From: an uncultured Elusimicrobia bacterium
GTDB taxonomy: Bacteria; Elusimicrobiota; Elusimicrobia; Elusimicrobiales; UBA9959
Length of the DNA: 38,895 bases
NCBI GenBank assembly: GCA_903873295.1
Contig: CAIQNV010000055.1
Coordinates: 1-38,895 of the forward strand
Direction of reading: 5' to 3'
Part shown: positions 5,489 to 29,282 of the stretch, one piece after another
Layout: each line of letters starts with the position of its first letter
Numbering within the stretch: the stretch's first letter is position 1
Program-made: the position numbers and the translations under genes
Notes under the pieces: model-generated
What the model was told of the DNA's origin: nothing
What the model saw: the letters and a program-made list of their open reading frames with translations, nothing else
Databases searched by the model: none

Positions 5489-5499
5489 CCGGGGGGAAA

Positions 5500-6429: not shown

Positions 6430-7601
6430 TCCCACTGATGAAGAACACTTTTCTGAACGAGTACGAGACCAAGAAAGAGCTGGTCGATTTCATACTTAAG
6501 GCAAAGATCCTGAGCATGGGAGAAAAATGCTTAGAGTTCGAAAAAGCTTTTGCCAAGATCCAGGGGCGCAGGCACTGCATACTTTTCAACAGCGGCGGCA
6601 GCGCCAACCTGGCCCTGCTGCAGGCGCTTAAGAACCTGGGCCGCCTGAAGGACGGGGACACCGTGGGCTTTTCGGCCCTCACCTGGTCCACTAACGTCAT
6701 GCCCATCCTGCAACTGGGCATGAAAGCCGTGCCGGTGGACTGCGAGGCGCAGACGCTCAACTGCATGGCGGCCAACCTTTCCGAGACCCTCAGGACGGTG
6801 AAGCTGGACGCTTTCTTCATCACCAACGCGCTGGGCTTCGCCGGCGACCTGGGCGAGATCCGCGAGGTCTGCAAAAAGCACGGCGTGCTGCTGATAGAGG
6901 ACAATTGTGAGTCGCTCGGGACCGCTCTGCCCGAAGGGAAGACCGGCAATTTCGGCGAGGCCTCCACCTTCTCTTTCTTCGTGGCGCACCACATGTCCAC
7001 CATCGAGGGCGGCTGCGCCTGCACCGACGACGACGAACTGGACGAGATGCTGCGCATCACCCGCGCCAACGGCTGGGACCGCAATCTTAATTTCTCCGCG
7101 CAGCGCCGCCTGCGCGGGAAGCACGGAGTTAAAAGCGAATTTGACGCCAAGTACACTTTTTACGATCTCGGCTTCAACCTGCGCCCCACGGAGATAACGG
7201 GCTTCCTCGGCCTTACGCAGCTGAAATACCTGGCCGACAACTGCGAAGTGCGGCAGAAGAATTACCTGGCACTGGAGGAGGAGGTCAACAACAACCCCGA
7301 GCTGCTGCCCCTCAGGCGCGGGCATCTTTCCTTCCTTTCCAACTTCGCTTTCCCGGTGCTCTGCAAGACCAAGGAGCTGCGCGGGAAATACATCGAGCAG
7401 TTCTCGGGCGACGGCGTGGAGATACGCCCGATAATAGCGGGCAACATGCAGCGCCAGCCGTTCTTCGCTAAATACGTGGCGGCTACCTTCGACCTGAAAG
7501 GCGCCGAGTTCCTGCACGAATGCGGCTTTTATTTCGGCAATTACCCGGAACTTACGGGCTCCGACCTTGACATGCTCAAGAGCTGCCTGCGGAAATACTG
7601 A
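6426..7601 (+). CDS. colD: ColD-like GDP-4-keto-6-deoxy-D-mannose 3-dehydratase
   Basis: 391 residues, close to the usual ~388. It has the DegT aminotransferase fold, but the PLP-binding lysine is replaced: the sequence around residues 184-195 reads FFVAHHMSTIEGG, with His188 and His189 where aminotransferases have Lys-Asn. His at this site is the hallmark of PMP-dependent sugar 3-dehydratases (ColD, RfbH); in ColD the His acts as acid/base. IEDNCESLG, NGWDRNL and EIRPIIAGN also match ColD. It removes O3 from GDP-4-keto-6-deoxymannose, using glutamate to regenerate PMP, and passes the product to the ColC-like enzyme upstream. RfbH acts on CDP sugars and is the other His-type relative, but the neighbour supports ColD. 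Confidence 0.85.
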   Translation: MIPLMKNTFLNEYETKKELVDFILKAKILSMGEKCLEFEKAFAKIQGRRHCILFNSGGSANLALLQALKNLGRLKDGDTVGFSALTWSTNVMPILQLGMKAVPVDCEAQTLNCMAANLSETLRTVKLDAFFITNALGFAGDLGEIREVCKKHGVLLIEDNCESLGTALPEGKTGNFGEASTFSFFVAHHMSTIEGGCACTDDDELDEMLRITRANGWDRNLNFSAQRRLRGKHGVKSEFDAKYTFYDLGFNLRPTEITGFLGLTQLKYLADNCEVRQKNYLALEEEVNNNPELLPLRRGHLSFLSNFAFPVLCKTKELRGKYIEQFSGDGVEIRPIIAGNMQRQPFFAKYVAATFDLKGAEFLHECGFYFGNYPELTGSDLDMLKSCLRKY

Positions 7602-7605
7602 CCGA

Positions 7606-8658
7606 ATGCCTAATAAACAGCTGGCTTTGTGGGTGGATAAGGTTTTCTGCAACGACGAAATCCTCGATCCCGCTAGCCCATACAACCTTGACGACAGGCT
7701 TTCCACTACGCGCCTTTTGCGGGAGCGGCTGGCCGAGCGCGGCTGGGACTGCCATACGGCCGATATTTACCAGAAGAAGCAGACTGTCCCTGATGCGGTC
7801 CTCTTTCTTGATATCCCCGCGCAGCCTCTCTCCGCCCTTATAAAGGAGTGGGGAACTGCGCGCAAGCTGGCCGTGCTGTTCGAATGCGCCGTGATAAAGC
7901 CCCAGAACTGGGAACTCTCCAGGCACCGCGATTTTGAAGCTGTCTTTACCTGGGCCGAAGAGCTGGTAGACAATAAGAAGTATTTCAAGATAAATTTCTC
8001 CCAGAAGTTCCCGGCCGTCTCTGAAGAAAAGGCGGATGGCAGAGAAAAGCTGTGCGTTCTGATCGCAGGGAATAAAAAGACGCAACGGCCGCTGGAACTT
8101 TACTCCGAAAGGGTAAGGGCCATCCGCTGGTTCGAAAAACATCATCCCGGCGAGTTAGACCTGTACGGCATAGGCTGGGACAGGCGTCTTTTTACCGGCC
8201 CGCTGCTTTTAAGGGCGTTGAACCGCGTCCCGGGCATAGCCCGAATGCTGGCCGAGCGATTTCCGTCCTATCGGGGAAAGGCGCCCGATAAGCGGAAATT
8301 GCTGAGAGAATATAAGTTCTCAATCTGTTATGAGAACGCGAAGGACACTCCCGGTTATATCACCGAGAAGATCTTCGACTGCTTGATTACGGGCTGCATC
8401 CCTGTTTACTGGGGGGCCCCGGATATCGCGAGGTATGTGCCCTTCGACTGTTTCATAGACAGGCGGGATTTCAAGACATATGAGGAGCTTTACGATTTCA
8501 TGAAGGGAATGAGCGACGGGGAGCGGGCGCGGCGGCTGGCCGCCGGGCACGCTTATCTGGCCGGCGGGGGAAATTACCAGTTCAGCGACGAATATTTCGT
8601 CAGGACTATAATCGGAGTGCTGACGGGCTCGGGCGGCGGGGCGGGGCTCCCGCGATGA
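7606..8658 (+). CDS. GT10 family fucosyl/colitosyltransferase
   Basis: 350 residues from ATG 7606, five bases after the ColD-like stop; a longer start at 7567 overlaps that gene and is less likely. The C-terminal half has the GT10 alpha-1,3/4-fucosyltransferase signature: FSICYENAKDTPGYITEKIF, then GCIPVYWGAP. The family moves L-fucose from GDP-Fuc, and related enzymes can use GDP-L-colitose. Next to ColC and ColD, the best inference is transfer of L-colitose or L-fucose to a growing repeat unit. It lacks an obvious membrane anchor. The stop overlaps the flippase start by ATGA. Confidence 0.85.
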   Translation: MPNKQLALWVDKVFCNDEILDPASPYNLDDRLSTTRLLRERLAERGWDCHTADIYQKKQTVPDAVLFLDIPAQPLSALIKEWGTARKLAVLFECAVIKPQNWELSRHRDFEAVFTWAEELVDNKKYFKINFSQKFPAVSEEKADGREKLCVLIAGNKKTQRPLELYSERVRAIRWFEKHHPGELDLYGIGWDRRLFTGPLLLRALNRVPGIARMLAERFPSYRGKAPDKRKLLREYKFSICYENAKDTPGYITEKIFDCLITGCIPVYWGAPDIARYVPFDCFIDRRDFKTYEELYDFMKGMSDGERARRLAAGHAYLAGGGNYQFSDEYFVRTIIGVLTGSGGGAGLPR

Positions 8659-12193: not shown

Positions 12194-14803
12194 CTATAAA
12201 GCGCAGCAGAATAGCGCGATAAGCCCGAACAGGTGCGCCAGGGTGGAGGTCAGCAGGGCTAATTTTAGCGGCAGATCGTGGAATCTGAATTTAATTTCGT
12301 GTTTCCCTTTCTGGACGACAATGCCCTTGAATTGGCCGTTAGTCCTATAGATCCTGGTCGGCTTCCCGTCGATAGTTGCCTCCCAGCGCGCATGGAATCT
12401 GTCCATATACACTAAAAGACCTTTACTGTCCCTTGTTACGGTGAAATCGGCGAAATTGTACCCGAATCCCGCCACGCTTATTCCAAGGCCGCCCAGCCGG
12501 TCTTTCCACCTCAGCGTAAGTCCTGTGGCGGGCGGCCGGCCGGAGACGATAAGTTCGTTTTGCTCTCTGAAGTTCGCCTGGAACAGCTTCTCGCTGTCGA
12601 AAACATCAAAATAGGCGGCCGCGTATGCCAGCCCGTTTTCACCGGTCAGTTCAATGTCCTTATAGTCCTTGTTAAGGAAATTGGAAGTAAGATAAGGCGG
12701 GAAGCCGGCTGGAAGTTCCGCCCTGAATAGTTTAACGGAAGGATGCTTCCCGTCGCTGCCGCACCGCGTGAAACTGCTCCCGGGAATGAAGGCCGACCTG
12801 CGCGCCGGTTCCGGGCTTAGCGGACCGGCAGAGGTCCGCGGACCGGCGGGGACTTTTGAGAGATCGAGTACCTGGAGGCCGGCATCCTCTTGTGAAGTCT
12901 CGACGACGGCGGCTGAGCGGTGGAGACCTTTTCTGTACGCCGAGGCGGTCAGCTCCAGATTTTTAGCCTGGCTTTTTGCGGGGATTATCCTGTCCACGAA
13001 AAAGAGTCGTTCGTTATTCCCGCGCAGATAGGGCGCGTCTTCAAGAAACGATCCCGGCAGGTTGAATAATTCCGGCCTTGAGCCGGAGACAAATTTAAAG
13101 GCGGCGTTGTTCTGAGCCGGGTAATTGTTCGCCGTGGTGATAAGCCCGCTATCGTCGAACCAGTATGGAAAAGAATGCCTGAAAGGGGAAGGAAAACCGC
13201 GCAGTTTTGGTCCGGGCAGATTGGGCCCGAACCGGTCCTCTTGCACGAGTTCCGCGCCGAACGGCTCGAAAAAGGTTTTAGTGTAATTTCTGAACGGGAT
13301 AAAGAGTTCAGCGGCAATAAGCAGCAAAGCGAGCGCGCCGGGAACCAGTCTGAGTTTCGGGAAACGCCTGGCGGGAAAATAAATGACCAGTAAAGAAATG
13401 GGAAGAATGAATGCGCAGTAGCGTGGAAAACGGCTGCCGGCAGCAAGGCGGGCGGCGGCCAGGACCATCAAGAGCCCTGCCGCTATAAGGTGAAAGCGCG
13501 GGGGGAGCTTTCCCTCGTTCTCTTCGGGTCCCGGCTTGAGCAGAGCGTCGAGCGCAAGGCCGAAGGCCAGGATAAGGAAAGGCGCGGCGAAGATGACCGG
13601 GAAGTTAAGATGCCGCGTGCTTATTGAAAGCAGCGGGTTGATGAAGACCATCAGCGGCAGAACGAAGTTGTACCCGTCCCGCGGGTTGGTGGAGGCGAGG
13701 AAAAGCGCAAGGGTGAGCGCTATTAACAGCGGCAGGACAGGGCTCTTGATTCTGCGCCAGAAGAAAAAGAACACGACCAGCGGGAATAACCCGTAATACA
13801 GGCGGGGAAGCGCGCTGTATTCCTGCAGCGCGGCGGTGCTCCCCTGGTTGTTCGCCAGGTTCTCGAACAGGGCGAAGATATTGTTCGTAAAAAATTTAAC
13901 CGAGACGCTGCTGAGATAGGAAAGGTTGTTCTGTATATAGGAGGCGTTAGCGGCGATTTCCCTATGGGCGCTCGTGAATTCGGGCAAGCGGAAGATCAAA
14001 ATCCCCTTTAACGCGAGCATTCCCGCGGCCAGCGCCGCAGAAGCCGCTATCATGGAAATCGGGCCGCATGAGGCCCGCGGTGTCTTCGGGAAGGTCTCAA
14101 CTCCGGTCCGCTGTCCGGGCCGGAGCAGGGCCGCGGCCCCGAAAAGGAGGATGAGCATGGTTAAGGCTTGCCCGAAATATGAAGTGTTCGAGGACAGGAA
14201 AAGGCCGAGGGCGAGGATAAGGCCCGAGAAATTAAGCGCCGGCTTTTCACCGGACGTCAGCCTGAAAAGAAAAAGGAGTATGAACGGCAGATAGAAAACG
14301 CCGGTGCCAAGCGAGTATACCGTGAAAAAGATATGGGTCCCGAACAGGGCCATCGCGAAAACGCACAGGCGCGCGAACCTGTCCGCGAGAAGGTCTTTGG
14401 CGAGCAGGTAGCAGCCGAAAGCGAAAGTGGCGCAGTAGCCGAGCAGGAAAGCGAAAAAAGTTATGCAAAAAAAAGAATAGCCGCTTCCCGGCAAAGCGGA
14501 CGCGGCGGCCTGCGCCATGGCGGCAATCGTAGTTATAAGCGGGTGGTAGGCAAGGTACGCTACGATGTCAACGCCGCCCAATCCCAGGTAAGGCTGCCAC
14601 AGGGGGATGTCGAAGTCCTGGAAAACACCGTTCAGTATATAGCTTGTGGCAAAATGTATCCCGGTGAAATCGCCATGAGGACGATAATAGGAATTGAAGA
14701 AAACATTATAGTGGAGCAAGAAAAATAGCGCGGTCAGAAGAAATATCAGTACCGGTGAGAGCCATTCTTTCTTGCCGGAAAACGCGCTTAAGAATCTTTT
14801 CAC
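12194..14803 (-). CDS. YfhO-like large membrane protein
   Basis: 869 residues if started at GTG 14803, which gives VKRFLSAFSGKKEW followed directly by the first membrane helix, the normal N-terminus for the family; ATG 14905 is an upstream alternative through AT-rich sequence. About a dozen membrane helices fill the first 480 residues, followed by a soluble region. The C-terminus (DRFHARWEATIDGKPTRIYR... then GKHEIKFRF and a last helix) is the YfhO family signature. Family members are linked to glycolipid or lipoteichoic acid glycosylation in Firmicutes and are widespread in glycan loci; the precise role here is unknown. It runs against its neighbours and ends 37 bases from the GT2 stop, with no clear terminator between them. 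Confidence 0.75.
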   Translation of the reverse strand: MKRFLSAFSGKKEWLSPVLIFLLTALFFLLHYNVFFNSYYRPHGDFTGIHFATSYILNGVFQDFDIPLWQPYLGLGGVDIVAYLAYHPLITTIAAMAQAAASALPGSGYSFFCITFFAFLLGYCATFAFGCYLLAKDLLADRFARLCVFAMALFGTHIFFTVYSLGTGVFYLPFILLFLFRLTSGEKPALNFSGLILALGLFLSSNTSYFGQALTMLILLFGAAALLRPGQRTGVETFPKTPRASCGPISMIAASAALAAGMLALKGILIFRLPEFTSAHREIAANASYIQNNLSYLSSVSVKFFTNNIFALFENLANNQGSTAALQEYSALPRLYYGLFPLVVFFFFWRRIKSPVLPLLIALTLALFLASTNPRDGYNFVLPLMVFINPLLSISTRHLNFPVIFAAPFLILAFGLALDALLKPGPEENEGKLPPRFHLIAAGLLMVLAAARLAAGSRFPRYCAFILPISLLVIYFPARRFPKLRLVPGALALLLIAAELFIPFRNYTKTFFEPFGAELVQEDRFGPNLPGPKLRGFPSPFRHSFPYWFDDSGLITTANNYPAQNNAAFKFVSGSRPELFNLPGSFLEDAPYLRGNNERLFFVDRIIPAKSQAKNLELTASAYRKGLHRSAAVVETSQEDAGLQVLDLSKVPAGPRTSAGPLSPEPARRSAFIPGSSFTRCGSDGKHPSVKLFRAELPAGFPPYLTSNFLNKDYKDIELTGENGLAYAAAYFDVFDSEKLFQANFREQNELIVSGRPPATGLTLRWKDRLGGLGISVAGFGYNFADFTVTRDSKGLLVYMDRFHARWEATIDGKPTRIYRTNGQFKGIVVQKGKHEIKFRFHDLPLKLALLTSTLAHLFGLIALFCCAL

Positions 14804-14875
14804 CGGATAATAATACAAAATATTAAAAGCATGCGCGGGTATTAAGCGGATGTGTTTATCTTCCGGAATCCTTAA

Positions 14876-14884
14876 TGATATAAT
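14876..14884 (+). promoter_or_regulatory. Predicted extended -10 promoter
   Basis: TGATATAAT is an extended -10 box (TG, one base, TATAAT) in an AT-rich patch, 59 bases before the radical SAM start. No convincing -35 is visible, which is usual for extended -10 promoters. The patch also lies upstream of the divergent YfhO-like gene and contains TATATT on the other strand, so a divergent promoter pair is plausible. Confidence 0.5.
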
Positions 14885-14943
14885 TAATATAGAAAGGACA
14901 CGCATTCCAGGGGCGGCTTCTGACAGTGGGCGAGACCGGTATA

Positions 14944-15771
14944 ATGGCAAAAAATCTTTCTTCCGCGCCGCCTTGCTTTAACGGCCTTACCACGGTCAAC
15001 CTGGAACTGACCAACCGCTGCAATAAGAAGTGCTGGATGTGCGGCCGGCGCAAAATGGAGGCCGAGAACCCCGGCATGACTATGTTCGACAGCGATATGG
15101 ATATTTCGCTCGTCGGGCGCATCGCAAAGCAACTTCCACCCGACATCGTTGTGCAGTTCCATAATAACGGCGACCCTCTCCTTTACCCTGAGCTGCCCCG
15201 CGCGCTTGATCTCTTCAGGCGCCAGGTGCGCTGTTTTGATACTAACGGCAAACTGTTTGTTAAAAGGGCCGCGGACGTGATCGGCCGGGTTGATACGGTT
15301 ACCGTTTCCACTTTCGAGCGGGATGAGGAGTGGGAAGAACAATTTGAAATTATTAGGGAATTCCTGAAACTGAAGGGTGCCGCTTCACCGCGCGTCATTA
15401 TCCGCTGCCTGGGAGAGCTGGGTGAAAAACGCCGGGAGCTTTACACGGCCACCGGCTGCCTGCTGGTGCCGCGCGTTCTGCACTCTCCCGACGGCAGTTT
15501 TAAATACGAAAAGCGGCCCACCGTCCCAGAAGTCGGATTCTGCATAGAAATAATGAACCACATGGCTATAAACACGGAGGGCGAGGTGTCCTTCTGCGTC
15601 AGGTTCGACCCGGAACGGCACGGCGTTATCGGCGACGCTTCAAAGGACGAGCTGTTGTCCATCTGGAACTCTCCCAAGAGGCGCGATTACGTCCGGGCCC
15701 ACATAGAGGGCAGACGGGGAGCATTGAATTTGTGCGGCAAGTGTCACTACTGGGGCGTGCCGCGGGGTTAA
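14944..15771 (+). CDS. Radical SAM/SPASM-domain protein
   Basis: 275 residues from ATG 14944; GTG 14926 is possible. The radical SAM cluster motif is C26-x3-C30-x2-C33 in NRCNKKCWMC. A C-terminal SPASM-like region with FC, SFCVRF and LCGKCHYW cysteines would hold an auxiliary cluster; the segment DELLSIWNSPKRRDYVRA is the common SPASM linker. Such proteins act on peptides or sugars, but no precursor peptide is visible beside it. It starts the nonulosonate-like block and lies 29 bases upstream of the NeuB-like gene, so modification of a sugar intermediate is a reasonable guess. The substrate is unknown. Confidence 0.82.
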   Translation: MAKNLSSAPPCFNGLTTVNLELTNRCNKKCWMCGRRKMEAENPGMTMFDSDMDISLVGRIAKQLPPDIVVQFHNNGDPLLYPELPRALDLFRRQVRCFDTNGKLFVKRAADVIGRVDTVTVSTFERDEEWEEQFEIIREFLKLKGAASPRVIIRCLGELGEKRRELYTATGCLLVPRVLHSPDGSFKYEKRPTVPEVGFCIEIMNHMAINTEGEVSFCVRFDPERHGVIGDASKDELLSIWNSPKRRDYVRAHIEGRRGALNLCGKCHYWGVPRG

Positions 15772-15800
15772 GCAGGCAAATAAATCCGAGGAAACGGAAC

Positions 15801-16643
15801 ATGTCCATATTCATCATAGCGGAAGTCGGCATAAACCACAACGGTGATATAAACATCGCCAAAGAGCTGATCAAGGTGGCGAAGCTGGCCGGCTGCGATG
15901 CGGTCAAATTCCAGAAGCGCAGCATAGATAAGGTCTATGCCAAAGAGCTGCTGGATACGCCGCGCGAATCTCCCTGGGGGGAAACCCAGAGAGCGCAGAA
16001 GGAAGGGCTAGAATTCGGATTGGAAGCGTACAGGGAGCTGGACAGTTACTGCAAAGATCTGGGGATAGAGTGGTTCGCTTCGGCGTGGGACGTAGACAGC
16101 CAGAAATTCCTGCGCCAGTTTAATTGCAAACACAATAAGGTCGCTTCCGCGATGATAATCGATGTCGCCCTGCTCAGGGAGATAGCTTCAGAGAAGAAGC
16201 ATACCTTCATCTCCACCGGGATGAGCACCCTGGCGCAGATAGACGCCGCCGTTGAGATCTTTAAAAAGGTCAGCTGCCCGTTCGAGCTCATGCATACCAA
16301 ATCCACCTACCCGATGGAGGACGAGGATGCCAACCTGAACTGCATAAAGACGCTTCGCGACCGCTACAAGTGCGATGTCGGCTATAGCGGGCACGAAACC
16401 GGCCTGGCCGTTTCGTACGCGGCAGCCGCCCTCGGGATAACCTCGCTCGAGCGGCACATAACTCTTGATCGCGCCATGTACGGCTCCGATCAGTCGGCCT
16501 CGCTGGAACCGGGCGGCCTGAACGCCCTGGTGGGCGCGGTGCGCAAGATAGAAAAAGCGCTAGGGGACGGGGATGTGAACATTCACCCCAAGGAAGTCCC
16601 CATCAGTAAGAAACTTCGCGGACACATTTTTCAGAACGATTGA
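15801..16643 (+). CDS. NeuB-family 3-deoxyulosonate synthase lacking the SAF domain
   Basis: 280 residues from ATG 15801, preceded by GAGGAAAC. The TIM-barrel motifs of sialic acid synthases are present: EVGINHNG, AVKFQKR, STGMSTLAQID, TYPMEDEDANLN and YSGHE. The variant motif MYGSDQSASLEPGGL stands where classic NeuB has GPDH. NeuB is usually about 345 residues with a C-terminal antifreeze-like SAF domain that caps the active site; here the protein ends at KKLRGHIFQND, so that domain is missing. It condenses a sugar with PEP in the family. The NeuA-like enzyme next door shows the product is CMP-activated. The acceptor sugar is unknown, and NeuC is absent. Confidence 0.82.
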   Translation: MSIFIIAEVGINHNGDINIAKELIKVAKLAGCDAVKFQKRSIDKVYAKELLDTPRESPWGETQRAQKEGLEFGLEAYRELDSYCKDLGIEWFASAWDVDSQKFLRQFNCKHNKVASAMIIDVALLREIASEKKHTFISTGMSTLAQIDAAVEIFKKVSCPFELMHTKSTYPMEDEDANLNCIKTLRDRYKCDVGYSGHETGLAVSYAAAALGITSLERHITLDRAMYGSDQSASLEPGGLNALVGAVRKIEKALGDGDVNIHPKEVPISKKLRGHIFQND

Positions 16644-16679
16644 CCGAGAGCGCTGTTTCTTCCTGAAGAGCCAGAAAAA

Positions 16680-17417
16680 ATGAGCATATACGCTATTATC
16701 CCAGCACGCGGAGGTTCGAAGGGTGTCCCGGGCAAGAACCTGCGCGCGCTGGCCGGGTATCCTCTTCTTGCTTATTCCATAGCGGCGGCAAAGCTTTCCG
16801 GCCGCATAAGCCGGGTAGTTGTCTCTACCGACTCCGCGGAGATAGCCGAGACAGGCAGGCGCTTCTCCGCAGAAACCCCTTTCCTGCGGCCGGCTGCCCT
16901 GGCGGGAGACAATTCTGGCGACGCTGAGTTTATGTCTCATGCGCTTGGCTGGTTCAAAGAGAACGAGGCCGCAGTCCCGGAATACCTGGTGCATCTCCGT
17001 CCTACTACCCCGCTGCGCGACCCTAAACTCATCGACGCCGCTATAGAGTTGATAGGTTCAAAGCCGGAGGCCACTTCTCTACGTTCGGCGCATCCTGCCC
17101 CGGAGTCGCCCTTTAAGTGGTTCCTGCGCTCGCCGGATGGCTTCTTCTCCGGCATAGCGCCGCAGTACTCCAACGACGAGTTGAACAAACAGCGCCAGTC
17201 GTTTCCGGAGGTTTATGTTCCCGACGGCTATGTAGATATAATAGACGCCGGAGCCTTTCTTTCCAGCGGGCTGCTGCACGGTCCGAAGATGCTGGCCTTT
17301 GTTTCTCCACAATGCCACGAAGTAGACGTTCCTGAAGATTTCGACTACCTGGAGTTCCAAATTAAACAGGAGGGCAGCGTCCTGCTTGATTATCTGAAGG
17401 CCGGATTTCCGAGATGA
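16680..17417 (+). CDS. neuA: NeuA-like CMP-nonulosonate cytidylyltransferase
   Basis: 245 residues. The N-terminus carries the CTP-binding signature IPARGGSKGVPGKNL, with RPTTPLRDP (about residues 103-111) and a C-terminal EVDVPEDFDYLEFQ. These are family marks of CMP-sialate, CMP-Kdo and related synthases; it activates an ulosonic acid with CTP in the cytoplasm. It lies 36 bases after the NeuB-like gene and overlaps the VOC gene by ATGA, so the three are probably one unit. The exact sugar (Neu5Ac, Kdn-like or a new one) cannot be read from sequence. Confidence 0.85.
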   Translation: MSIYAIIPARGGSKGVPGKNLRALAGYPLLAYSIAAAKLSGRISRVVVSTDSAEIAETGRRFSAETPFLRPAALAGDNSGDAEFMSHALGWFKENEAAVPEYLVHLRPTTPLRDPKLIDAAIELIGSKPEATSLRSAHPAPESPFKWFLRSPDGFFSGIAPQYSNDELNKQRQSFPEVYVPDGYVDIIDAGAFLSSGLLHGPKMLAFVSPQCHEVDVPEDFDYLEFQIKQEGSVLLDYLKAGFPR

Positions 17418-17860
17418 AAACCATCTTATCCGCACGGCACACAGGCCTGGTAGTTAAGGACCTTGAAAGGTCCATAGCTTTCTACCGCGATCTGCTTGGG
17501 CTGGAACTGGCCGGCCGCGCTAAAGAGGAGGGGGACTATATAGAGAAGTTGGTAGGCATCCCCGTAGCGGCGGTGGAGTGGGCCAAACTTAAGGTTCCGG
17601 GCGGCCATATCGTGGAACTCCTTCAGTATCATTCCCCACCGCTTGACTCCTCCGCTGAGGAAATCGGCCGGTCCAACCGTCCCGGCTGCTCCCATCTGGC
17701 TTTTACAGTAACCGATCTGGACGGCTTGTTCGAGGCTTTACTGGGCGCGGGCTATAAATGCAACAGCGCCCCTCTGCTTTCTCCCGACGGGAAGGTTAAG
17801 GTGCTGTACGCGCATGATCCCGACGGCATTATCTTAGAACTTGTTCAGGAACTGAAATAA
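17414..17860 (+). CDS. VOC superfamily (glyoxalase-fold) metalloprotein
   Basis: 148 residues with the paired beta-alpha-beta-beta-beta VOC modules. Four metal ligands of the family can be matched: His in ARHTGLVV, Glu in HIVELLQYH, His in CSHLAFTV and Glu in DPDGIILELV. The likely relatives are methylmalonyl-CoA epimerase and lactoylglutathione lyase-type proteins, which deprotonate carbons next to a carbonyl. It is coupled to the NeuA-like gene by ATGA and sits five bases before the aminotransferase, so an epimerase or isomerase step in the sugar pathway is inferred. A stand-alone detoxification role cannot be excluded. Confidence 0.75.
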   Translation: MKTILSARHTGLVVKDLERSIAFYRDLLGLELAGRAKEEGDYIEKLVGIPVAAVEWAKLKVPGGHIVELLQYHSPPLDSSAEEIGRSNRPGCSHLAFTVTDLDGLFEALLGAGYKCNSAPLLSPDGKVKVLYAHDPDGIILELVQELK

Positions 17861-17864
17861 CGCT

Positions 17865-19139
17865 ATGGCGATAAAAACAAAGAATCGTTTAATGACGAAA
17901 AGGCCCGATATCTCGGGCAACCGCCTTTTCTCCGCTACCGCGGCCATGGAGCCGCGCGCCACGCTGCAGACCATACAACTGCCATGGAAGAAAGCCTCCG
18001 GGTTCTCCGTTTACGACTTCAGCGGGAACAAGTATATAGACATGACGTCAGGAATTTTCGTGGCTAATGCCGGCCACGCCAATAAGGCTATAAAAACGGC
18101 TATAAAGAAAACGCTGGATTCGGACCTGCTCTTTTCCTACAACTACCCCACCGAAGTGAAAAGGGATTTCCTGAAGAAGCTGTTGGCCGTTTCTCCCCGG
18201 CACTTCAACTGCGCCATGCTGCTGATGTCGGGCTCTGAAACCGTTGACGCGGCCTACAAGCTGATGAAGAACTGGGGCAACAAGCACGGCCGTAAATACA
18301 TAATAACTTTCAAGGGCAGCTACCATGGGCGGGGCTTGAGCAACGACCTGATCAGCGGAAGCAGCGCCAAGGCGGGCTGGTCCGGAGTTAAGGATAAGAA
18401 CGTGGTTTTTCTGGATTTTCCTTACTCCCCGGACGCGCGATTTGATCCTGAAAAACTTCCTCCGCCCGAACAGATAGCCGGTTTCATGCTGGAAACTTTT
18501 CAGGGCTGGGGCGCGTGGTTCTACCCGAAAAAGTACCTTGGTGACCTTTGTGCCTTCGCCAGGAAAGCCGGCGCCTTGGTCTGCTTCGATGAAATGCAGT
18601 CCGGGTTCTACCGCCTTGGCGCTATTTACGGTTACCTGACTTATTCCCCTTCGATAAAACCCGATATTCTCTGCCTCGGTAAAGGAATTTCTTCCTCTCT
18701 GCCGCTGGCCGCCGTGCTTACGAGGAAAGTAATAGCTGATGTCGACCCTAAAGCCGACCTGCACGGGACGCAATCCGGCAATCCGCTGTGCTGTGCCGCC
18801 TCGCTGGCCAACCTTAAGTTCCTGAGCAGCCCCCGAATACAGGCACACCTTCGGAAGGTGATCCCTGTTTGGGAAAAAGAAACAGCGGCGCTGGCCGGGC
18901 TTCCGGGGGTTAAACTGGTTAACACCAGGGGCCTGATAGCCGGTATAATCTTCGAAGACGCCAAGACCGCCACAGCGGCAGTGAAACGCTGCATTTACGA
19001 CGGCGTCCTGCCCGTCTGCACGAACCGCAATTCTATCAAGCTCGCGCCGCCGCTTTGCATAACCGCTGATGCGATCAAAGAAGCGATAGAGGTGCTGCGC
19101 GCCGCGATATGCGGTGCGGCCGGTAATTCAAGTAAATGA
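17865..19139 (+). CDS. Class III PLP-dependent aminotransferase (GSA-aminotransferase-like)
   Basis: 424 residues. The PLP lysine is K273 in LCLGKGISSSLP, and FDEMQSGFYRLG upstream holds the class III Asp that contacts the cofactor. GSETVDAAYKL and GSYHGRG are the other class III motifs. The start at ATG 17865 follows the VOC stop closely. Most sugar aminotransferases in such loci are DegT-type, so a class III enzyme is unusual; it may transaminate or isomerise a keto-sugar acid or add an amine to a side chain. Glutamate-1-semialdehyde aminomutase itself is less likely given the neighbours. Confidence 0.82.
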   Translation: MAIKTKNRLMTKRPDISGNRLFSATAAMEPRATLQTIQLPWKKASGFSVYDFSGNKYIDMTSGIFVANAGHANKAIKTAIKKTLDSDLLFSYNYPTEVKRDFLKKLLAVSPRHFNCAMLLMSGSETVDAAYKLMKNWGNKHGRKYIITFKGSYHGRGLSNDLISGSSAKAGWSGVKDKNVVFLDFPYSPDARFDPEKLPPPEQIAGFMLETFQGWGAWFYPKKYLGDLCAFARKAGALVCFDEMQSGFYRLGAIYGYLTYSPSIKPDILCLGKGISSSLPLAAVLTRKVIADVDPKADLHGTQSGNPLCCAASLANLKFLSSPRIQAHLRKVIPVWEKETAALAGLPGVKLVNTRGLIAGIIFEDAKTATAAVKRCIYDGVLPVCTNRNSIKLAPPLCITADAIKEAIEVLRAAICGAAGNSSK

Positions 19140-20524
19140 AAATACTTTTGATCTCCTACGATAATGACATGTATGTCAATGTGTTCCCGGTCGGCTTGGG
19201 ATACATAGCCGCCGTACTCCGCAAAGCCGGATTTGAGGTCGTGATCTATAACCAGGATATGCATCATTACCCCGAGGAACACCTGACCCGCTACCTTGAC
19301 GAGAACCGTTTCGATATGGTCGGGATGGGTATCATAGGCGGGTATTACCAATACGGTAAGCTCCTGAAGATTTCCGCTGCGATCAATAAAAGTAAGCGCA
19401 GGCCTTTTTATGTGCTGGGCGGGCACGGACCTTCCCCCGAGCCAGGTTATTTCCTGCGAAAAACAGGGGCGGACGCGATAGTTATAGGCGAGGGAGAGGA
19501 AACCATTCTGGAGTTGGCGCGGGCAGTGGCCGCTAAAAAGCCTGTTAGTACGATCCGCGGGCTGGCGTATATGGACGGCCACAAGGCTGTTGTTAACGAA
19601 CGCAGACCGCTTATCAAGGACCTTGATTCTATCCCTTTTCCCTCATACGACCTTTTTCCGATGGAGTTTTACAGGATGTACCGATCTCCCCACTGCGTGC
19701 CGCGCGACTTCGTCGCCACCATGATCTCGGGCCGCGGCTGCCCGTTCCGCTGCGCCTTCTGTTACCGGATGGACGATGGTTTCAGGCCGCGCAGCACCGA
19801 GGGGATAGTCGAGGAGATTAAGCTGCTTAAATCTAAATACGGCATAACGTATATTTCTTTCACCGATGAGCTCCTTATTTCCTCGGTAAAGCGCACGACC
19901 GAGCTATGCGAGGCTTTTATCCGGGAGGGCCTCAATATAAAATGGGAATGCAACGGCAGGCTCAACTATGTAAACCCTAAAATGTTGCAGTTGATGAAGC
20001 GCGGGGGCTGCGTCTTTATAAATTACGGCATCGAGGCTCTGGATAACGATGTGCTCAGGAAGATGAACAAATGCCTGACCGTGGACCAGATCGTTAAGGG
20101 CATAGAGGCGACGCTTAAAGAGGGGATAAGTCCGGGCTTTAATATTATTTTCGGCAACGTAGGAGATACAAAGCAGACCTTGGGGAAAGCCGTGAACTTC
20201 CTGTTGAAATACGACGACGGTTCACAATTGCGCACCATAAGGCCGGTTACCCCGTACCCCGGATCGCCGCTGTATTATCATTCCCTTAAGACGGGGCTGA
20301 TAAAGGATTGCGCGGATTTTTATGAAAACAAGCACGTTAATTCAGACTTGCTGTCGGTCAACTTCACAAAGCTGTCCGACAAGGAATTCCACCAGGCGCT
20401 GTGCGACGCGAACAGCAGGCTTATCCGGAATTATTTCAAGAATAAAACAAAGATATCTCTCGAAGAAGCGAAGCGTCTTTATCAGGATCTCAATGTGAAT
20501 TTCAGGGGATTCCGCCAAAGTTAG
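19136..20524 (+). CDS. B12-binding-domain radical SAM protein
   Basis: 462 residues. The N-terminal ~150 residues form a cobalamin-binding-type Rossmann domain (ILLISYDNDMYVNVFPVGLGYIAAVLRKAG, GGHGPSPEPG, IGEGEETI). The radical SAM motif is C202-x3-C206-x2-C209 in GRGCPFRCAFC, followed by the SAM region and ERxTEL-like segments. A DxHxxG lower-ligand motif is not obvious. B12-radical SAM enzymes methylate or rearrange unactivated carbons, so it may add a methyl group to the CMP-linked sugar or its carrier. It overlaps the aminotransferase stop by ATGA. Confidence 0.83.
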   Translation: MKILLISYDNDMYVNVFPVGLGYIAAVLRKAGFEVVIYNQDMHHYPEEHLTRYLDENRFDMVGMGIIGGYYQYGKLLKISAAINKSKRRPFYVLGGHGPSPEPGYFLRKTGADAIVIGEGEETILELARAVAAKKPVSTIRGLAYMDGHKAVVNERRPLIKDLDSIPFPSYDLFPMEFYRMYRSPHCVPRDFVATMISGRGCPFRCAFCYRMDDGFRPRSTEGIVEEIKLLKSKYGITYISFTDELLISSVKRTTELCEAFIREGLNIKWECNGRLNYVNPKMLQLMKRGGCVFINYGIEALDNDVLRKMNKCLTVDQIVKGIEATLKEGISPGFNIIFGNVGDTKQTLGKAVNFLLKYDDGSQLRTIRPVTPYPGSPLYYHSLKTGLIKDCADFYENKHVNSDLLSVNFTKLSDKEFHQALCDANSRLIRNYFKNKTKISLEEAKRLYQDLNVNFRGFRQS

Positions 20525-20536
20525 GCACAGTGATCA

Positions 20537-21436
20537 ATGCAAATTACTTCATACGAATGGTTCGTAGGCCGCGAAAATAATAAACCGTGCCTGGTTACCG
20601 GGACCGCTCCGAGCGCCGAGAATTTTCCCTATGCCAGGTTTAAAGGCATTTATGTAACCTGCGGGGATGGACCGGTAAGGCTTAAAAGCCTTTTTACCCC
20701 GCATTACTGGGTCAACGCGAACAGCTATTTCCCGATACCGGAACAGCACCTGGGGATAATCAACGGTTTTGCCGATACGGTTTTTGTTTTCGCGGATTCA
20801 GTTGCTTACTCCACCCGGCCGATCAGCCTTGATTTCCTTCGCGATAAGCTTAAGGTGAATTGGTTTGCTTATGACCAGAGGCACTTCGGAGGGAAGCCCT
20901 GCACGCCCAAGCCGCGCCAATGCTGCGATCTGCTGGATATTTACCCCGGAAGGCTGACTATCCAGGAATTCATCCAGCAAAAGTATGGTCGGAACCGTCA
21001 TTACTCCTCCGGGTCTTCCGGGGCGATACATGCTTTCGCCTTAGCCGTTCTATTGGGCTGCTCGCCTATCTATATCCAGGGGATAGAATTCCCGCGTTAT
21101 GCGGGCGATTACGCGTACAGGTCCTGTCCGGAAGCGGACCTTTTGAACCGGCCGGATTATGCCGCTAAAGCGGCGCGTATACTATCCCATCCCGGCACCT
21201 GGCTGAATACAGGCAAGAGGGTTATATCAAAGCTGCGCGCTACATTCTCGCCCGGCGGGCAGGCGGTTAAGAAGTCCCTTTTCTTTGATGATATCCCGCA
21301 GATCCTGGCGGATTTCGAGTACCTGGCCGGGCTTGCGGCGGAGAACGGCATCGAGGTTTATAATCTCAGCAGGACTTCCACACTGAACGAAGTAAGAAGT
21401 CTTAAATATAAGGATCCCGCTCTTTTGAGTATTTAG
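20537..21436 (+). CDS. GT42/DUF115-like protein, candidate sialyl-type transferase
   Basis: 299 residues. Early residues NKPCLVTGTAPSAENFPYARFKGIYVTCGDGP fit the nucleotide-binding start of GT42 sialyltransferases and of DUF115 proteins. The later segment SSGSSGAIHAFALAVLLGCSPIYIQGIEF with YAYRS after it closely resembles the Cst-II-type stretch in which a Gly-rich turn and helix precede LSGIDF. Placed after NeuB, NeuA and modification genes, it is a good candidate for the transferase that uses the CMP-sugar. No identity is proven; it could also be a DUF115 family protein of other function. Confidence 0.5.
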   Translation: MQITSYEWFVGRENNKPCLVTGTAPSAENFPYARFKGIYVTCGDGPVRLKSLFTPHYWVNANSYFPIPEQHLGIINGFADTVFVFADSVAYSTRPISLDFLRDKLKVNWFAYDQRHFGGKPCTPKPRQCCDLLDIYPGRLTIQEFIQQKYGRNRHYSSGSSGAIHAFALAVLLGCSPIYIQGIEFPRYAGDYAYRSCPEADLLNRPDYAAKAARILSHPGTWLNTGKRVISKLRATFSPGGQAVKKSLFFDDIPQILADFEYLAGLAAENGIEVYNLSRTSTLNEVRSLKYKDPALLSI

Positions 21437-21481
21437 GTTGCCTGCGGCGGCGGAAGAACAGGCCGCGGAGGAGTTGTCCGG

Positions 21482-22690
21482 ATGAGAGATACGATGGACT
21501 ATGTGATCAATTTTGATTTCGAGGAAGTTAATTCAGCGGTTTTCCGCAATGCGCAGCTATACCTCAGGAAGAAGGTAAAGAGCGACAAGGTGTGCGTGAT
21601 TGTTCCTGCACAGTTCGCTTTTTTGTTTAAGAACGCGGACGCAGTGGCGGTGCTCGGGCGTAAGTTATTAAAGGAATTCGGGATAGGCGAATACCGCGAG
21701 GTCTTGAATTACGGCTGTTCCTCGGATACTGCCCCGGCGGGCAGGGTCAGACGAAAGATCCAATATACCCTGCGCCGTATCCAAAATGCCATAATTGACA
21801 AGTCAAAGCTGTTCGGCGACAAGGTTTCCATTTTCGTTTACGGCAAGCTCTACTATAGCGGGCGCCAGAGAAAGTTCTTTATAGATAACGGTCTGGAGAA
21901 ATACTGCCTCAAGTCGCTTGCCCGCCGCTATGGGCAGTTCAAGTATGTCCGCGTGGCGGATTATTTCGATTTCACCAGGATGAAGATAGCGGACCTGGAC
22001 TTGTATAAGCATTTCTCCCTTAATTTCTCCTACTTGGAAACAATGATAAAAGAGGGAGATCTGTACAGCAACCGAATGAATAAACAAAAACTGTCCGACG
22101 CTGCCGTGGCCCAGCTCCCTTTACTTAGCGAGGCACAGAAACGCTTTCTTTCCGATTTTGTCTCCGCCGGAACCGAAAAGGTTATTCTCCGCACCAGGAA
22201 TTTCCCGAATAAGGCGACGGCCCATAATTCCAGCCCGGAAGTATTTTGCGGCCTGGCGAAAGCCCTGGTTTTCCGGAAGGTAAGGGTGCTGAACCTGGGG
22301 TGTCCGCTCCTGGAGCTGGATATCCAGAGCGAGTTGTACTGCGAGATAGACCACAATCTTCCGTTCGAACTGGAATTGGCCCTCTGCCAGTGCGCCGACG
22401 CTGCGGCGATGACCGGGGGGGCCGGTCTGTTCACCGCGTTCGCGGCGAGCCGGATAAGAATAATACAGGTGGACGACGAATGGTCCGAACTGCTGTCCCC
22501 GCCCATAAGACTGCTGACGGCCAGGGCGGCGGCGGGTCAAAAAGATATGGATATCCGCAAATACGCGGCCGCGGAGGATTTTGAAGGGGCGGCGGACCAG
22601 GTGCTGGGCTGTATAAAGACTTTTTCCTCAGCGTCAGGCTTCGCCCCGGAGAGGGCTGGCGCGCCGGTGCAGGCGGCTATAGAACTTTAA
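21482..22690 (+). CDS. Unrecognised 402-residue protein, possible GT-B-like enzyme
   Basis: 402 residues from ATG 21482 with GGAGGAG just upstream; ATG 21494 is an alternative. I do not recognise a family with confidence. It is basic in the first half, with no signal peptide or membrane helix. The C-terminal half has VILRTRNFPNKATAHNS and later LPFELELALCQCADAAAMTGGAGLFTAFAASRIRIIQV, which looks like the donor-side Rossmann region of GT-B glycosyltransferases (R-x-R plus a Gly-rich turn). It overlaps the ABC transporter start by one base, so it belongs to the same operon. Confidence 0.55.
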   Translation: MRDTMDYVINFDFEEVNSAVFRNAQLYLRKKVKSDKVCVIVPAQFAFLFKNADAVAVLGRKLLKEFGIGEYREVLNYGCSSDTAPAGRVRRKIQYTLRRIQNAIIDKSKLFGDKVSIFVYGKLYYSGRQRKFFIDNGLEKYCLKSLARRYGQFKYVRVADYFDFTRMKIADLDLYKHFSLNFSYLETMIKEGDLYSNRMNKQKLSDAAVAQLPLLSEAQKRFLSDFVSAGTEKVILRTRNFPNKATAHNSSPEVFCGLAKALVFRKVRVLNLGCPLLELDIQSELYCEIDHNLPFELELALCQCADAAAMTGGAGLFTAFAASRIRIIQVDDEWSELLSPPIRLLTARAAAGQKDMDIRKYAAAEDFEGAADQVLGCIKTFSSASGFAPERAGAPVQAAIEL

Positions 22691-27172: not shown

Positions 27173-28072
27173 ATGGCCGGGGCTGCAATACCAAAAATAC
27201 TGATACTGGGCGGAGGCGGAACGCTGGGCCATAAGCTTTGGCAGCATCTGTCTTTGAAATTTACTGACACTTTCGTCTCTATACGTAAAAACCGGAGTTT
27301 CTATGCGAAATGCGGACTGTTTACCGGGCCGAATGTTATTGATGGGCTGGACCTGCGGGACTTCATGCGCCTTAACGAAGTCCTGAATGACATTAAGCCC
27401 TCCGTCATAGTGAACTGCGCCGGTGTTACGCTGCGCAGCAAAGAAGCGCTGGATAAGAACTCGACCATTTCCTTAAACGCCCTTCTGCCGCACCGGCTGG
27501 CTGAATGGTGCTCCCATAGCGGCGCGCGGCTTATCCATTTCAGCACCGTCTGCGTTTTTGACGGGAAGACAGGCGGTTACACCGAGGACAGCTTGCCCGA
27601 CGCCCGGGATCTTTACGGGATGACGAAGGCTTTAGGTGACGTTTCCGCTCCTTTCGCCCTGACGCTCCGCTCCTCGTTCATAGGCCGCGAGATATTCGGC
27701 GGCAATGAACTGCTGGAATGGTTCCTGGCGCAGAAGGGGAAAAAGATAAAAGGCTTTACCAAGGCGCTGTTCACCGGCCTGACCACCAACCGCCTGGCGG
27801 AGCTCGTGGGGGATTTGATAGGAAAGCATCCCGCGCTTAACGGGCTTTATCATGTTTCAAGCGAAACCCTTTCTAAATATGAGCTGCTGAAACTGATGAA
27901 AGAGGCTTACAAGCTGGATGTTGCAATAGAGTCCGACGATAGTTTTGAGTGCCGGCGCGACCTAAAGGGCGCCAGGTTTGAAAAAGCGGCGGGGTTCATC
28001 TGCCCGCCGTGGAAGCAACTGATGGCCGAGATGGCCGCGGACAAAACTTCCTACAGCGACTGGCGCAAGTAA
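27173..28072 (+). CDS. RmlD-like sugar-nucleotide reductase (WbvR-like, no cupin domain)
   Basis: 299 residues, SDR fold. Residues 9-20 ILILGGGGTLGH form the NAD(P) site; the catalytic YxxxK lies in DLYGMTKALGD, and STVCVFDGKTGGYTED is the RmlD-like segment that precedes it. FnlB/CapF-type enzymes in the L-FucNAc route are about 370 residues with a C-terminal cupin epimerase domain; this one stops without it. That matches WbvR, which reduces the 4-keto intermediate to UDP-L-RhaNAc. It heads the operon with FnlA/WbvB and WecB-like genes. Confidence 0.78.
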   Translation: MAGAAIPKILILGGGGTLGHKLWQHLSLKFTDTFVSIRKNRSFYAKCGLFTGPNVIDGLDLRDFMRLNEVLNDIKPSVIVNCAGVTLRSKEALDKNSTISLNALLPHRLAEWCSHSGARLIHFSTVCVFDGKTGGYTEDSLPDARDLYGMTKALGDVSAPFALTLRSSFIGREIFGGNELLEWFLAQKGKKIKGFTKALFTGLTTNRLAELVGDLIGKHPALNGLYHVSSETLSKYELLKLMKEAYKLDVAIESDDSFECRRDLKGARFEKAAGFICPPWKQLMAEMAADKTSYSDWRK

Positions 28073-28086
28073 GGGAATTGATAATT

Positions 28087-29100
28087 ATGCCGAATCTTAA
28101 AAATAAGACCATTCTGATAACCGGCGGGACCGGTTCTTTCGGGCACGAGCTGCTCGATACCATAAGGCTCAAGGATTTTAAAGAGGTCAGGATATTCAGC
28201 CGGGACGAGCTTAAGCAGGAGCACATGCGCATCCAGCTTAATAACCCCAAGGTAAAATTTTACATCGGCGATGTGCGGGACCGGGACAGCGTGGACCAGG
28301 CGATGAAAGGCGTGGATATGGTTTTCCACGCGGCCGCCCTGAAACAGGTCCCTTCCTGCGAATTCTTCCCCATCCAGGCAGTGCTGACTAATATCCTGGG
28401 CAGCCATAACGTGGTCGAGTCCGCCGTACAGCATAAGATCGAGAGCGTGGTCTGCCTGGGCACGGATAAGGCCGTTTACCCGGTGAACGCCATGGGCATG
28501 ACCAAAGCGCTTATGGAGAAGGTCAGCCAGGCCGCCTGCCGCGGCCTGACAGAAAAAGACACCAAGATCTCCTGCGTCAGGTACGGCAACGTGATGTGCT
28601 CGCGCGGCTCCGTCATCCCTTTGTTCATAAAACAGATCAAAGAGAAGAAACCCATAACCGTCACCGACGCCGGGATGACCAGGTTCCTGCTGCCGCTGCC
28701 CGAGGCGATAAAGCTTGTGTTGTTCGCTTTTAAGAACGCGAAGCAGGGAGATATTTTTATTAAAAAAGCCCCGGCCTGTACGGTAGGCGACCTGGCCACG
28801 GCCTTGAAGGAACTCTTCAAGTCCGCCGTCCCGGTCAAAAGCATCGGCATCCGCCACGGCGAGAAGGTCTACGAAACGCTCCTGACTACGGAAGAATTGC
28901 GCCGGGCGGAGGATATGGGGGATTATTTCAGGGTAAGCATGGACGGCCGTGACCTGAATTACAATAAGTACTTTACCGAAGGTGACAAAAAAGAGGCGCG
29001 GCTGTCCGATTATACCTCCCATAGCACCGAGCGCATGAGCGTAAAAGAGATCAAGGAAATGCTTTTAAAACTGCCGGAAGTAGTTTCAGAGCTGAAATAG
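28087..29100 (+). CDS. fnlA: FnlA/WbvB/CapE-like UDP-GlcNAc 4,6-dehydratase/epimerase
   Basis: 337 residues from ATG 28087; an upstream start overlaps the reductase. The NAD(P) motif is GGTGSFG. The catalytic YxxxK is replaced by M136-x-x-x-K140 (MGMTK in DKAVYPVNAMGMTKA), the mark of the CapE/FnlA/WbjB branch rather than the PglF or FlaA1 branch. These enzymes convert UDP-D-GlcNAc to UDP-2-acetamido-2,6-dideoxy-4-keto-L-hexoses by dehydration and epimerisation at C5 and C3. The product goes to the reductase upstream, then to the 2-epimerase downstream. Confidence 0.88.
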   Translation: MPNLKNKTILITGGTGSFGHELLDTIRLKDFKEVRIFSRDELKQEHMRIQLNNPKVKFYIGDVRDRDSVDQAMKGVDMVFHAAALKQVPSCEFFPIQAVLTNILGSHNVVESAVQHKIESVVCLGTDKAVYPVNAMGMTKALMEKVSQAACRGLTEKDTKISCVRYGNVMCSRGSVIPLFIKQIKEKKPITVTDAGMTRFLLPLPEAIKLVLFAFKNAKQGDIFIKKAPACTVGDLATALKELFKSAVPVKSIGIRHGEKVYETLLTTEELRRAEDMGDYFRVSMDGRDLNYNKYFTEGDKKEARLSDYTSHSTERMSVKEIKEMLLKLPEVVSELK

Positions 29101-29110
29101 ACGGGGGGGA

Positions 29111-29233
29111 GGGACAGGCCAGGGGTTGCCCGTTCCGCCGCGCAGGAACCGTTGCGCGGTTCCCCCCAGCCGGGATAATAAGGCTGGGGCCCCCTTCCCC
29201 AAAGCGGCTTCAGGGCAACCCCTGGCCTGTCCC
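29111..29233. repeat. 123-bp palindromic element with 21-bp terminal inverted repeats
   Basis: Bases 29111-29131 and 29213-29233 are perfect inverted copies of 21 bp. Inside are two more perfect stems: CCGCGCA (29138-29144) with TGCGCGG (29153-29159), and CCCCAGCC (29164-29171) with GGCTGGGG (29182-29189). It sits between the dehydratase and the 2-epimerase within one operon. Its left part recurs near 38766. It looks like a small non-autonomous repeat (MITE/REP-like) rather than a terminator, since no T-run follows. Confidence 0.75.
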
Positions 29234-29282
29234 GGAGAATATGGGGATGAGAAAAGAAGATAAAAAAGAGATTGGAGATCTT

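Follow-up and report, generated by a model that had tools for sequence, protein, structure and literature searches.

We analysed a gene cluster on a contig of an uncultured Elusimicrobia bacterium (CAIQNV010000055.1, assembly GCA_903873295.1). The window is this one whole contig of 38,895 bases, and the genome it belongs to comprises 3.49 Mb and is 89.9% complete. Six plus-strand genes (14944-20524) encode a radical SAM (S-adenosylmethionine) enzyme, a NeuB-family synthase, a NeuA-like cytidylyltransferase, a VOC-fold protein, a class III aminotransferase and a B12-binding radical SAM enzyme; a candidate transferase gene follows. In our estimate the chances are even that these seven genes form a module for an unusual 3-deoxy-2-ulosonate activated by cytidine monophosphate (CMP), of the nonulosonate type or possibly longer, and for its attachment to a surface glycan. 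A preliminary description of this DNA had proposed a CMP-ulosonate pathway that includes two radical SAM enzymes, its six genes joined by ATGA overlaps or tight spacing. The spacing was confirmed: the gene-to-gene distances are 29, 36, -4, 4 and -4 bases, with 4-base ATGA-type overlaps at two of five junctions and the other three tight. So was the linkage, as all six kinds of gene are present in the window and in five other loci (L053, L059, L147, L157, L175).

The linkage of the gene set is real: a chance neighbourhood was rejected, as the set recurs in unrelated lineages with three seeds. The B12 enzyme, searched in the 294 genomes of the phylum with at most five candidates scored per genome, yielded 13 matches at E 1e-60 or better; eight of them, including the window, have at least 60% identity, and the next has 38%. 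Relatives at 60-70% identity are present in seven other genomes. NeuB or NeuA genes lie nearby in seven of the eight close loci (window included), and the eighth locus starts 115 bases from a contig end. In L039 (genome G244), the first radical SAM enzyme, NeuB, NeuA, VOC protein and B12 enzyme are 78, 86, 54, 61 and 70% identical to those of the window, and two genes that read as methyltransferases occupy the place of the aminotransferase. L045 (G112), from another family of the phylum, has five of the six kinds, with NeuB 78% identical to that of the window, and genes reading as a short-chain dehydrogenase/reductase (SDR) and a methyltransferase.

With the first radical SAM enzyme as the seed, five genomes of the same 294 matched, and NeuB was found within 3 kb in all five. 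One locus, L053 (G115), has five of the six kinds at 65-89% identity, next to which lies a B12-type gene of lower similarity. The NeuB seed was applied to one genome per species, and the best 80 of at least 585 relatives were used; the best eight matches listed have 72-78% identity and names from several phyla. L059, titled Desulfobacteraceae, has all six kinds (NeuB 77%, B12 enzyme 61%, first radical SAM enzyme 54%). The combination of NeuB, NeuA, class III aminotransferase and VOC protein was also found without the first radical SAM enzyme, in Syntrophorhabdus (L057), Planctomycetota (L058, a 6 kb contig), Magnetococcales (L063, L064), Spirochaetes (L087), Anaerolineae (L096), Pelagibacteraceae (L100), Riflebacteria (L104) and Alphaproteobacteria (L108).

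The search of the IMG/VR viral collection with the first radical SAM enzyme gave 68 relatives, from which we kept the 37 whose match was long (L140-L176); L177 was set aside, and L178-L207, short or weak matches, stayed outside the count. NeuB lies within about 8 kb in 26 of the 37 loci. The gene of the first radical SAM enzyme is seen, mostly with NeuB, on 37 IMG/VR contigs (L140-L176, L208-L216), some longer than 100 kb, and three of these (L147, L157, L175) have all six kinds. The B12 enzymes of L059, L147 and L157 are 52-61% identical to that of the window.

Strong relatives of the first radical SAM enzyme (250 bits or more) were counted in 39 of 122 loci. Ten weaker loci were omitted from this count (L101, L133 and eight from the viral collection, five of the eight with NeuB), and the identical loci L160 and L161 were both counted, except that L161 was left out of the VOC/class III and 80-locus contrasts. 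The gene maps come from greedy picking of open reading frames, so that some NeuB genes stand under other labels; genes beyond a contig end were counted as absent in the counts for the 39 loci, in the 89-locus set and in the VOC/class III and 80-locus contrasts. The 39 loci contain the NeuB family in 31 cases, NeuA or SpsF in 29 and the B12 family in 24. Class III and class IV aminotransferases occur in 12 loci each and never together, 24 loci having one or the other; VOC proteins are found in 11, and TIM-barrel and SDR10 proteins in none. At least one of the NeuB, NeuA/SpsF, aminotransferase, VOC and B12 families is present in 36 of the 39. On a quick FastTree tree of 110 NeuB rows, where genes not found were set to unknown if the flank was shorter than 4 kb, presence of the radical SAM gene changes at least 15 times and that of the class III aminotransferase at least 16 times among rows of known state. 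The linkage is therefore not that of one inherited clade.

The first radical SAM enzyme has the motif CX3CX2C and only four more conserved cysteines (C200-x12-G-x4-C218, C264-x2-C267). All seven cysteines are invariant in 48 of 48 rows of the alignment (window counted twice). This pattern indicates one auxiliary cluster held by four cysteines, that is, a twitch domain of the BtrN type and not the two-cluster SPASM domain. The preliminary description had spoken of a SPASM radical SAM gene; the Pfam SPASM model does match (40.7 bits), and the full SPASM domain gives way to the one-cluster twitch. BtrN is the top match by sequence profile, by Foldseek and by VIA-align, with 19-22% identity in the structural alignments, and in the Foldseek ranking it is followed by the radical SAM epimerase EpeE and the dehydrogenase SpeY. 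The enzyme looks like an alcohol dehydrogenase. It reaches no NCBIfam cut-off and has no match in the plasmid collection. The auxiliary cluster of BtrN is held by four cysteine ligands, and BtrN yields an amino-ketone during butirosin synthesis (PMC9012708).

The synthase belongs to the NeuB family, as its catalytic domain scores 234.9 bits and the family's lysine, histidine and acidic positions are conserved: K36, K113, H198, E217 and H219 in 111 of 111 rows, D230 in 110 and E8 in 109 (window counted twice). We take these seven positions to have the catalytic roles known for the family. The Pfam scan of the window protein (280 residues) gave no match to SAF, the C-terminal domain of the bacterial Neu5Ac synthase architecture. 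The preliminary description had rightly noted this absence. However, it is not the mark of a special enzyme, since in all 109 rows that reach a stop codon, gathered with SAF-less queries, the protein ends 230-299 residues past the aligned start and, judged by length, is too short for a SAF domain; its absence is an ordinary trait of the subfamily. The protein scores far below the cut-off of the N-acetylneuraminate synthase equivalog model TIGR03569 (246.1 bits vs 399.65, the missing SAF domain explaining part of the gap), and its neighbours are linked to it in relatives; the outcome that would have refuted the preliminary description was therefore not observed. It is also below the cut-off of the pseudaminic acid synthase model TIGR03586 (183.6 bits vs 340.25), as the NeuA protein is for the pseudaminic cytidylyltransferase model TIGR03584 (117 bits vs 205.7). 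The closest solved relative of NeuB is 6ncs (145.6 bits, a chain of 290 residues), presumably a Leptospira protein. A NeuB relative with 46.5% identity is encoded in a 484 kb uncultured phage record (LR756508.1).

Conserved positions are also intact in the other enzymes. In the VOC protein H9 and H94 are kept in 19 of 19 rows and E68 and E142 in 18; we assume that these four are the metal ligands. Lysine K273 of the aminotransferase is present in 28 of 28 rows, and the CX3CX2C motif of the B12 enzyme in 51 of 51 (window counted twice in both). The B12 enzyme has both domains expected of a cobalamin-dependent radical SAM C-methyltransferase, each above its cut-off. Its best solved relative is AprD4 (77.3 bits), its best family models are BchE (136.8 bits) and rSAM_ladder_B12 (133.9 bits), and it stays under the cut-offs of all 23 NCBIfam models it matched, including that of the AprD4 radical SAM diol-dehydratase, NF033070 (91.1 bits, equivalog cut-off 500). 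Cobalamin-dependent members that do not methylate have been described (PMC13142503). C-methylation or rearrangement is a guess, and would concern this enzyme only. In the plasmid collection it matched 9 records, with 31.3% identity at best among the matches listed. Close relatives (60-68% identity) were seen in other nonulosonate-type loci, L040, L042, L043 and L044; by eye, L042 and L043 contain genes reading as a PseA-like amidotransferase, and L043 also HisH/HisF-like genes. As such relatives occur in other nonulosonate-type loci, the substrate of the B12 enzyme may be common to several ulosonates. The transferase (20537-21436) matches no Pfam or NCBIfam model. Its fold class is likely GT42/MAF-like, judging from a low-confidence model (pLDDT 64.4) aligned with MAF and GT42 sialyltransferases at 12-15% identity. 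It had no match in the plasmid collection, and scans of the viral collection and a PDB profile of two transferases led nowhere.

In the proposed pathway, NeuB would condense phosphoenolpyruvate with an aldose, probably an aldose phosphate, to a 3-deoxy-2-ulosonate. The twitch enzyme would abstract a hydrogen next to a hydroxyl group and, passing an electron to the auxiliary Fe-S cluster, give a carbonyl (ketone or aldehyde) in the manner of BtrN. The VOC metalloenzyme would enolise this carbonyl and epimerise the sugar or move the carbonyl, and the class III aminotransferase would convert the carbonyl to an amine. NeuA would make the CMP-sugar, the B12 enzyme would modify the molecule further (most likely by C-methylation, possibly by epimerisation, deoxygenation or a ring change), and the GT42/MAF-like enzyme would transfer the sugar to a surface glycan. 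An association of VOC and class III genes is expected if the VOC protein acts on a carbonyl before amination, and VOC is found in 15 of 26 loci with the class III aminotransferase vs 4 of 95 without it. A plain Fisher test of this pair, with genes not found set to unknown where a flank was shorter than 4 kb, gives p 1.8e-8. By the same plain test the radical SAM gene is associated with the B12 gene (p 3.0e-5) and VOC (p 0.029); these tests pool NeuB-seeded, radical-SAM-seeded and phylum loci.

KdsC/KDN-9-phosphatase-like HAD domains were seen near SAF-less NeuB in 40 of 122 loci, and the GmhA-type phosphoheptose isomerase domain in 38, fused with a HAD domain in L084 (10827-11888). Some SAF-less NeuBs may take a heptose phosphate as substrate, the product then being a ulosonate of ten carbons. 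For the phosphatase and the isomerase, the window's genome has housekeeping candidates, namely one KdsC-like gene (contig 22), one GmhA-like gene (contig 108) and a weak partial match from the GmhA search (contig 120). A split transketolase was considered as the source of the aldose; it was seen in L016 and, by gene map, in L093, L102 and L122, and is not present in the window. An acetolactate-synthase-like enzyme dependent on thiamine pyrophosphate (TPP) occurs in 20 of 89 NeuB loci, and NeuA in 2 of these vs 52 of the 69 without the TPP enzyme, an indication that NeuB products have a second use; the window, having both, is one of the exceptions.

Several observations weigh against the proposed pathway. 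We infer the substrates, the order of steps, the carbon positions and the product. No phosphatase was found in the window cluster. No class III or IV aminotransferase was found in the stretch covered in 15 of the 39 radical SAM loci, among them the close relatives L039 and L045 with several kb on both sides, and thus the oxidation cannot serve amination alone; the VOC protein is present in only 11. L042-L044 have close relatives of the B12 enzyme, but a gene for the first radical SAM enzyme was not seen in them (two of these loci are truncated by contig ends), so that the two radical enzymes do not necessarily work in the same pathway. The B12 genes of L053 and L175 are not closely related to that of the window. 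Among the 294 genomes searched, only that of the window yielded the transferase. Moreover, 37 of the 122 loci come from the viral collection and are taken as assigned there, and contig ends truncate many of the loci. Finally, the tree-corrected sign tests are not significant, neither for the radical SAM gene (median p 0.25 vs TIM barrel, 0.25 vs B12 and 0.5 vs VOC) nor for class III aminotransferase vs VOC (p 0.0625).

Alternatively, the first radical SAM enzyme could be redox-neutral, for instance an epimerase, and invert one C-H centre of the ulosonate in a single step, in place of a TIM-barrel isomerase and SDR set that oxidises, isomerises and reduces. Loci without a radical SAM gene frequently have the TIM-barrel isomerase, often with SDR genes. 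It is encoded in 32 of the 73 loci that lack the first radical SAM enzyme and in none of the 39 with it, which suggests that the radical SAM enzyme replaces the TIM-barrel step (the pooled plain Fisher test, with its unknown states, gives p 1.7e-6); one TIM-barrel protein, searched without a positive control, had no match in the window's incomplete genome. The second place of EpeE in the Foldseek ranking is consistent with epimerisation. However, the dehydrogenase BtrN is best by both sequence and structure, with the dehydrogenase SpeY third. The TIM-barrel exclusion is weak when only the 80 NeuB-seeded loci are taken (0 of 5 with the radical SAM gene vs 32 of 75 without, p 0.08), and it is not significant when corrected for the tree; within the 89-locus set (94 loci minus L040, L042, L043, L044 and L046, fetched by the B12 gene) p is 0.012. 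We consider an epimerase unlikely. Oxygen as a simple rule for the choice between radical and NAD chemistry was not supported, as the TIM-barrel gene is present in loci titled Clostridium, Roseburia and Syntrophorhabdus.

The first radical SAM enzyme, the VOC protein and the aminotransferase could also act apart from the ulosonate and build a substituent, either an amino acid or an acyl group, or else an aminated aldose precursor, to be joined to it later. Class IV (branched-chain type) enzymes, which usually take alpha-keto acids, fill the aminotransferase slot in other loci, which would fit such a role. However, the aminotransferase genes are interspersed with those of NeuB and NeuA, and no acyl- or aminoacyl-transferase is seen among the ten recurrent neighbour families annotated, a weak argument given that only ten were covered. 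To this explanation we give a small chance. An ordinary pathway to legionaminic acid, pseudaminic acid or Neu5Ac, in which the radical SAM genes would be bystanders, is disfavoured and highly improbable: NeuB and NeuA do fall in the broad families of such pathways, but both are under every equivalog cut-off, no LegB/LegC, PseB/PseC or NeuC type is present among the six genes, and the radical SAM link recurs in distant lineages. Beyond the proposed module, there may be a whole class of radical-SAM-built ulosonates, in which a BtrN-like enzyme would replace the TIM-barrel/SDR steps and a B12 enzyme would then C-methylate or otherwise remodel the aminated acid, either as such or in CMP-activated form, to yield previously unseen acidic sugars. 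They might have ten carbons, since the phosphoheptose isomerase domain accompanies many of the related NeuBs. This extension is possible but, in our view, less likely than not.

The features of the window are listed in Table 1. Three plus-strand terminator-like sites were found in 14500-21600, each within a gene, and on both strands there are 7 such sites vs 8.7 in shuffled sequences, that is, no excess; a promoter scan led nowhere. The orphan gene between the transferase and the ABC transporter has no Pfam or NCBIfam match and no relative in the 37 viral-collection loci. The program ARAGORN places a tRNA-Gly (ccc) at 21250-21333 inside the transferase gene, probably a false positive. By eye, a UDP-FucNAc-type trio of RmlD-, CapD- and WecB-like genes was seen at 27173-30416, and a GDP-fucose-synthase-like gene with a GT10-like fucosyltransferase at 5485-8658. 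The module is flanked by these putative UDP-FucNAc and fucose genes, as if within one large surface-glycan locus.

Table 1. Predicted genes of the cluster and other features of the window
Feature	Position	Strand	Evidence or remark
Twitch-type radical SAM enzyme, BtrN-like, proposed alcohol dehydrogenase	14944-15771	+	Pfam SPASM 40.7 bits; Radical_SAM 24.7 bits, under its 29.5 cut-off
SAF-less NeuB-family ulosonate synthase	15801-16643	+	Pfam NeuB 234.9 bits; 280 aa
NeuA/PseF-like cytidylyltransferase	16680-17417	+	Pfam CTP_transf_3 71.4 bits; PseF model 117 bits
VOC-fold protein, proposed epimerase or isomerase	17414-17860	+	Pfam Glyoxalase 57.8 bits
Class III PLP (pyridoxal phosphate) aminotransferase	17865-19139	+	Pfam Aminotran_3 204.8 bits
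B12-binding-domain radical SAM enzyme, putative tailoring step	19136-20524	+	Pfam B12-binding (PF02310) 64.2 bits; Radical_SAM (PF04055) 79 bits
GT42/MAF-like glycosyltransferase, proposed CMP-ulosonate transferase	20537-21436	+	starts 12 bases past the sixth gene
Orphan protein, 402 aa	21482-22690	same as cluster	between transferase and ABC transporter
Putative ABC transporter	22690	same as cluster	read by eye
Longest open reading frame upstream of cluster	12194-14950	opposite	
Acetolactate-synthase-like TPP enzyme	1802-3610		
DegT-like gene	6426		read by eye; outside the six-gene set
WecB-like gene	29241		read by eye; outside the six-gene set

If the proposed module is correct, aminoglycoside-type radical chemistry would be joined to sialic-acid-type sugars, and an undescribed acidic sugar is predicted on the surface of little-known bacteria. 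The recurring seven-gene set is defined, its enzymes could be tested individually, and a possible role is offered for a twitch radical SAM family that lies under all NCBIfam cut-offs. No radical SAM step in a nonulosonate or sialic-acid pathway was found in the literature searched, judging by the titles and opening lines of the abstracts listed, most subscription journals being outside the search.

A Leptospira nonulosonate synthase is fused to a phosphatase, and a phosphorylated aldose was proposed as its substrate (PMC3438082); the main text of that paper does not contain the word "radical". The window differs in having neither a fused nor an adjacent phosphatase. With the legionaminic and pseudaminic pathways the window shares the NeuB and NeuA families, the CMP-activated product and the surface-glycan setting. 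Unlike them, it has two radical SAM enzymes, no dehydratase or NeuC/LegG/PseG-type hydrolase among the six genes, and a class III aminotransferase in place of a DegT one. This last contrast, drawn in the preliminary description, holds for the window set but is not rare near NeuB, as class III genes were found in 17 of 89 loci, and in 14 of these 17 the first radical SAM enzyme is absent. The B12 enzyme has the domain plan common to AprD4, BchE, HpnJ, OxsB and methylases. The first radical SAM enzyme is most similar to BtrN, the 2-deoxy-scyllo-inosamine dehydrogenase of butirosin synthesis, in its twitch domain with one four-cysteine cluster and in the accompanying aminotransferases, whereas BtrN belongs to an aminocyclitol cluster and the window enzyme to one of the CMP-ulosonate type. 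The gene logic resembles the step pair of 2-deoxystreptamine synthesis, in which radical oxidation is followed by amination, as it would be applied to a ulosonate.

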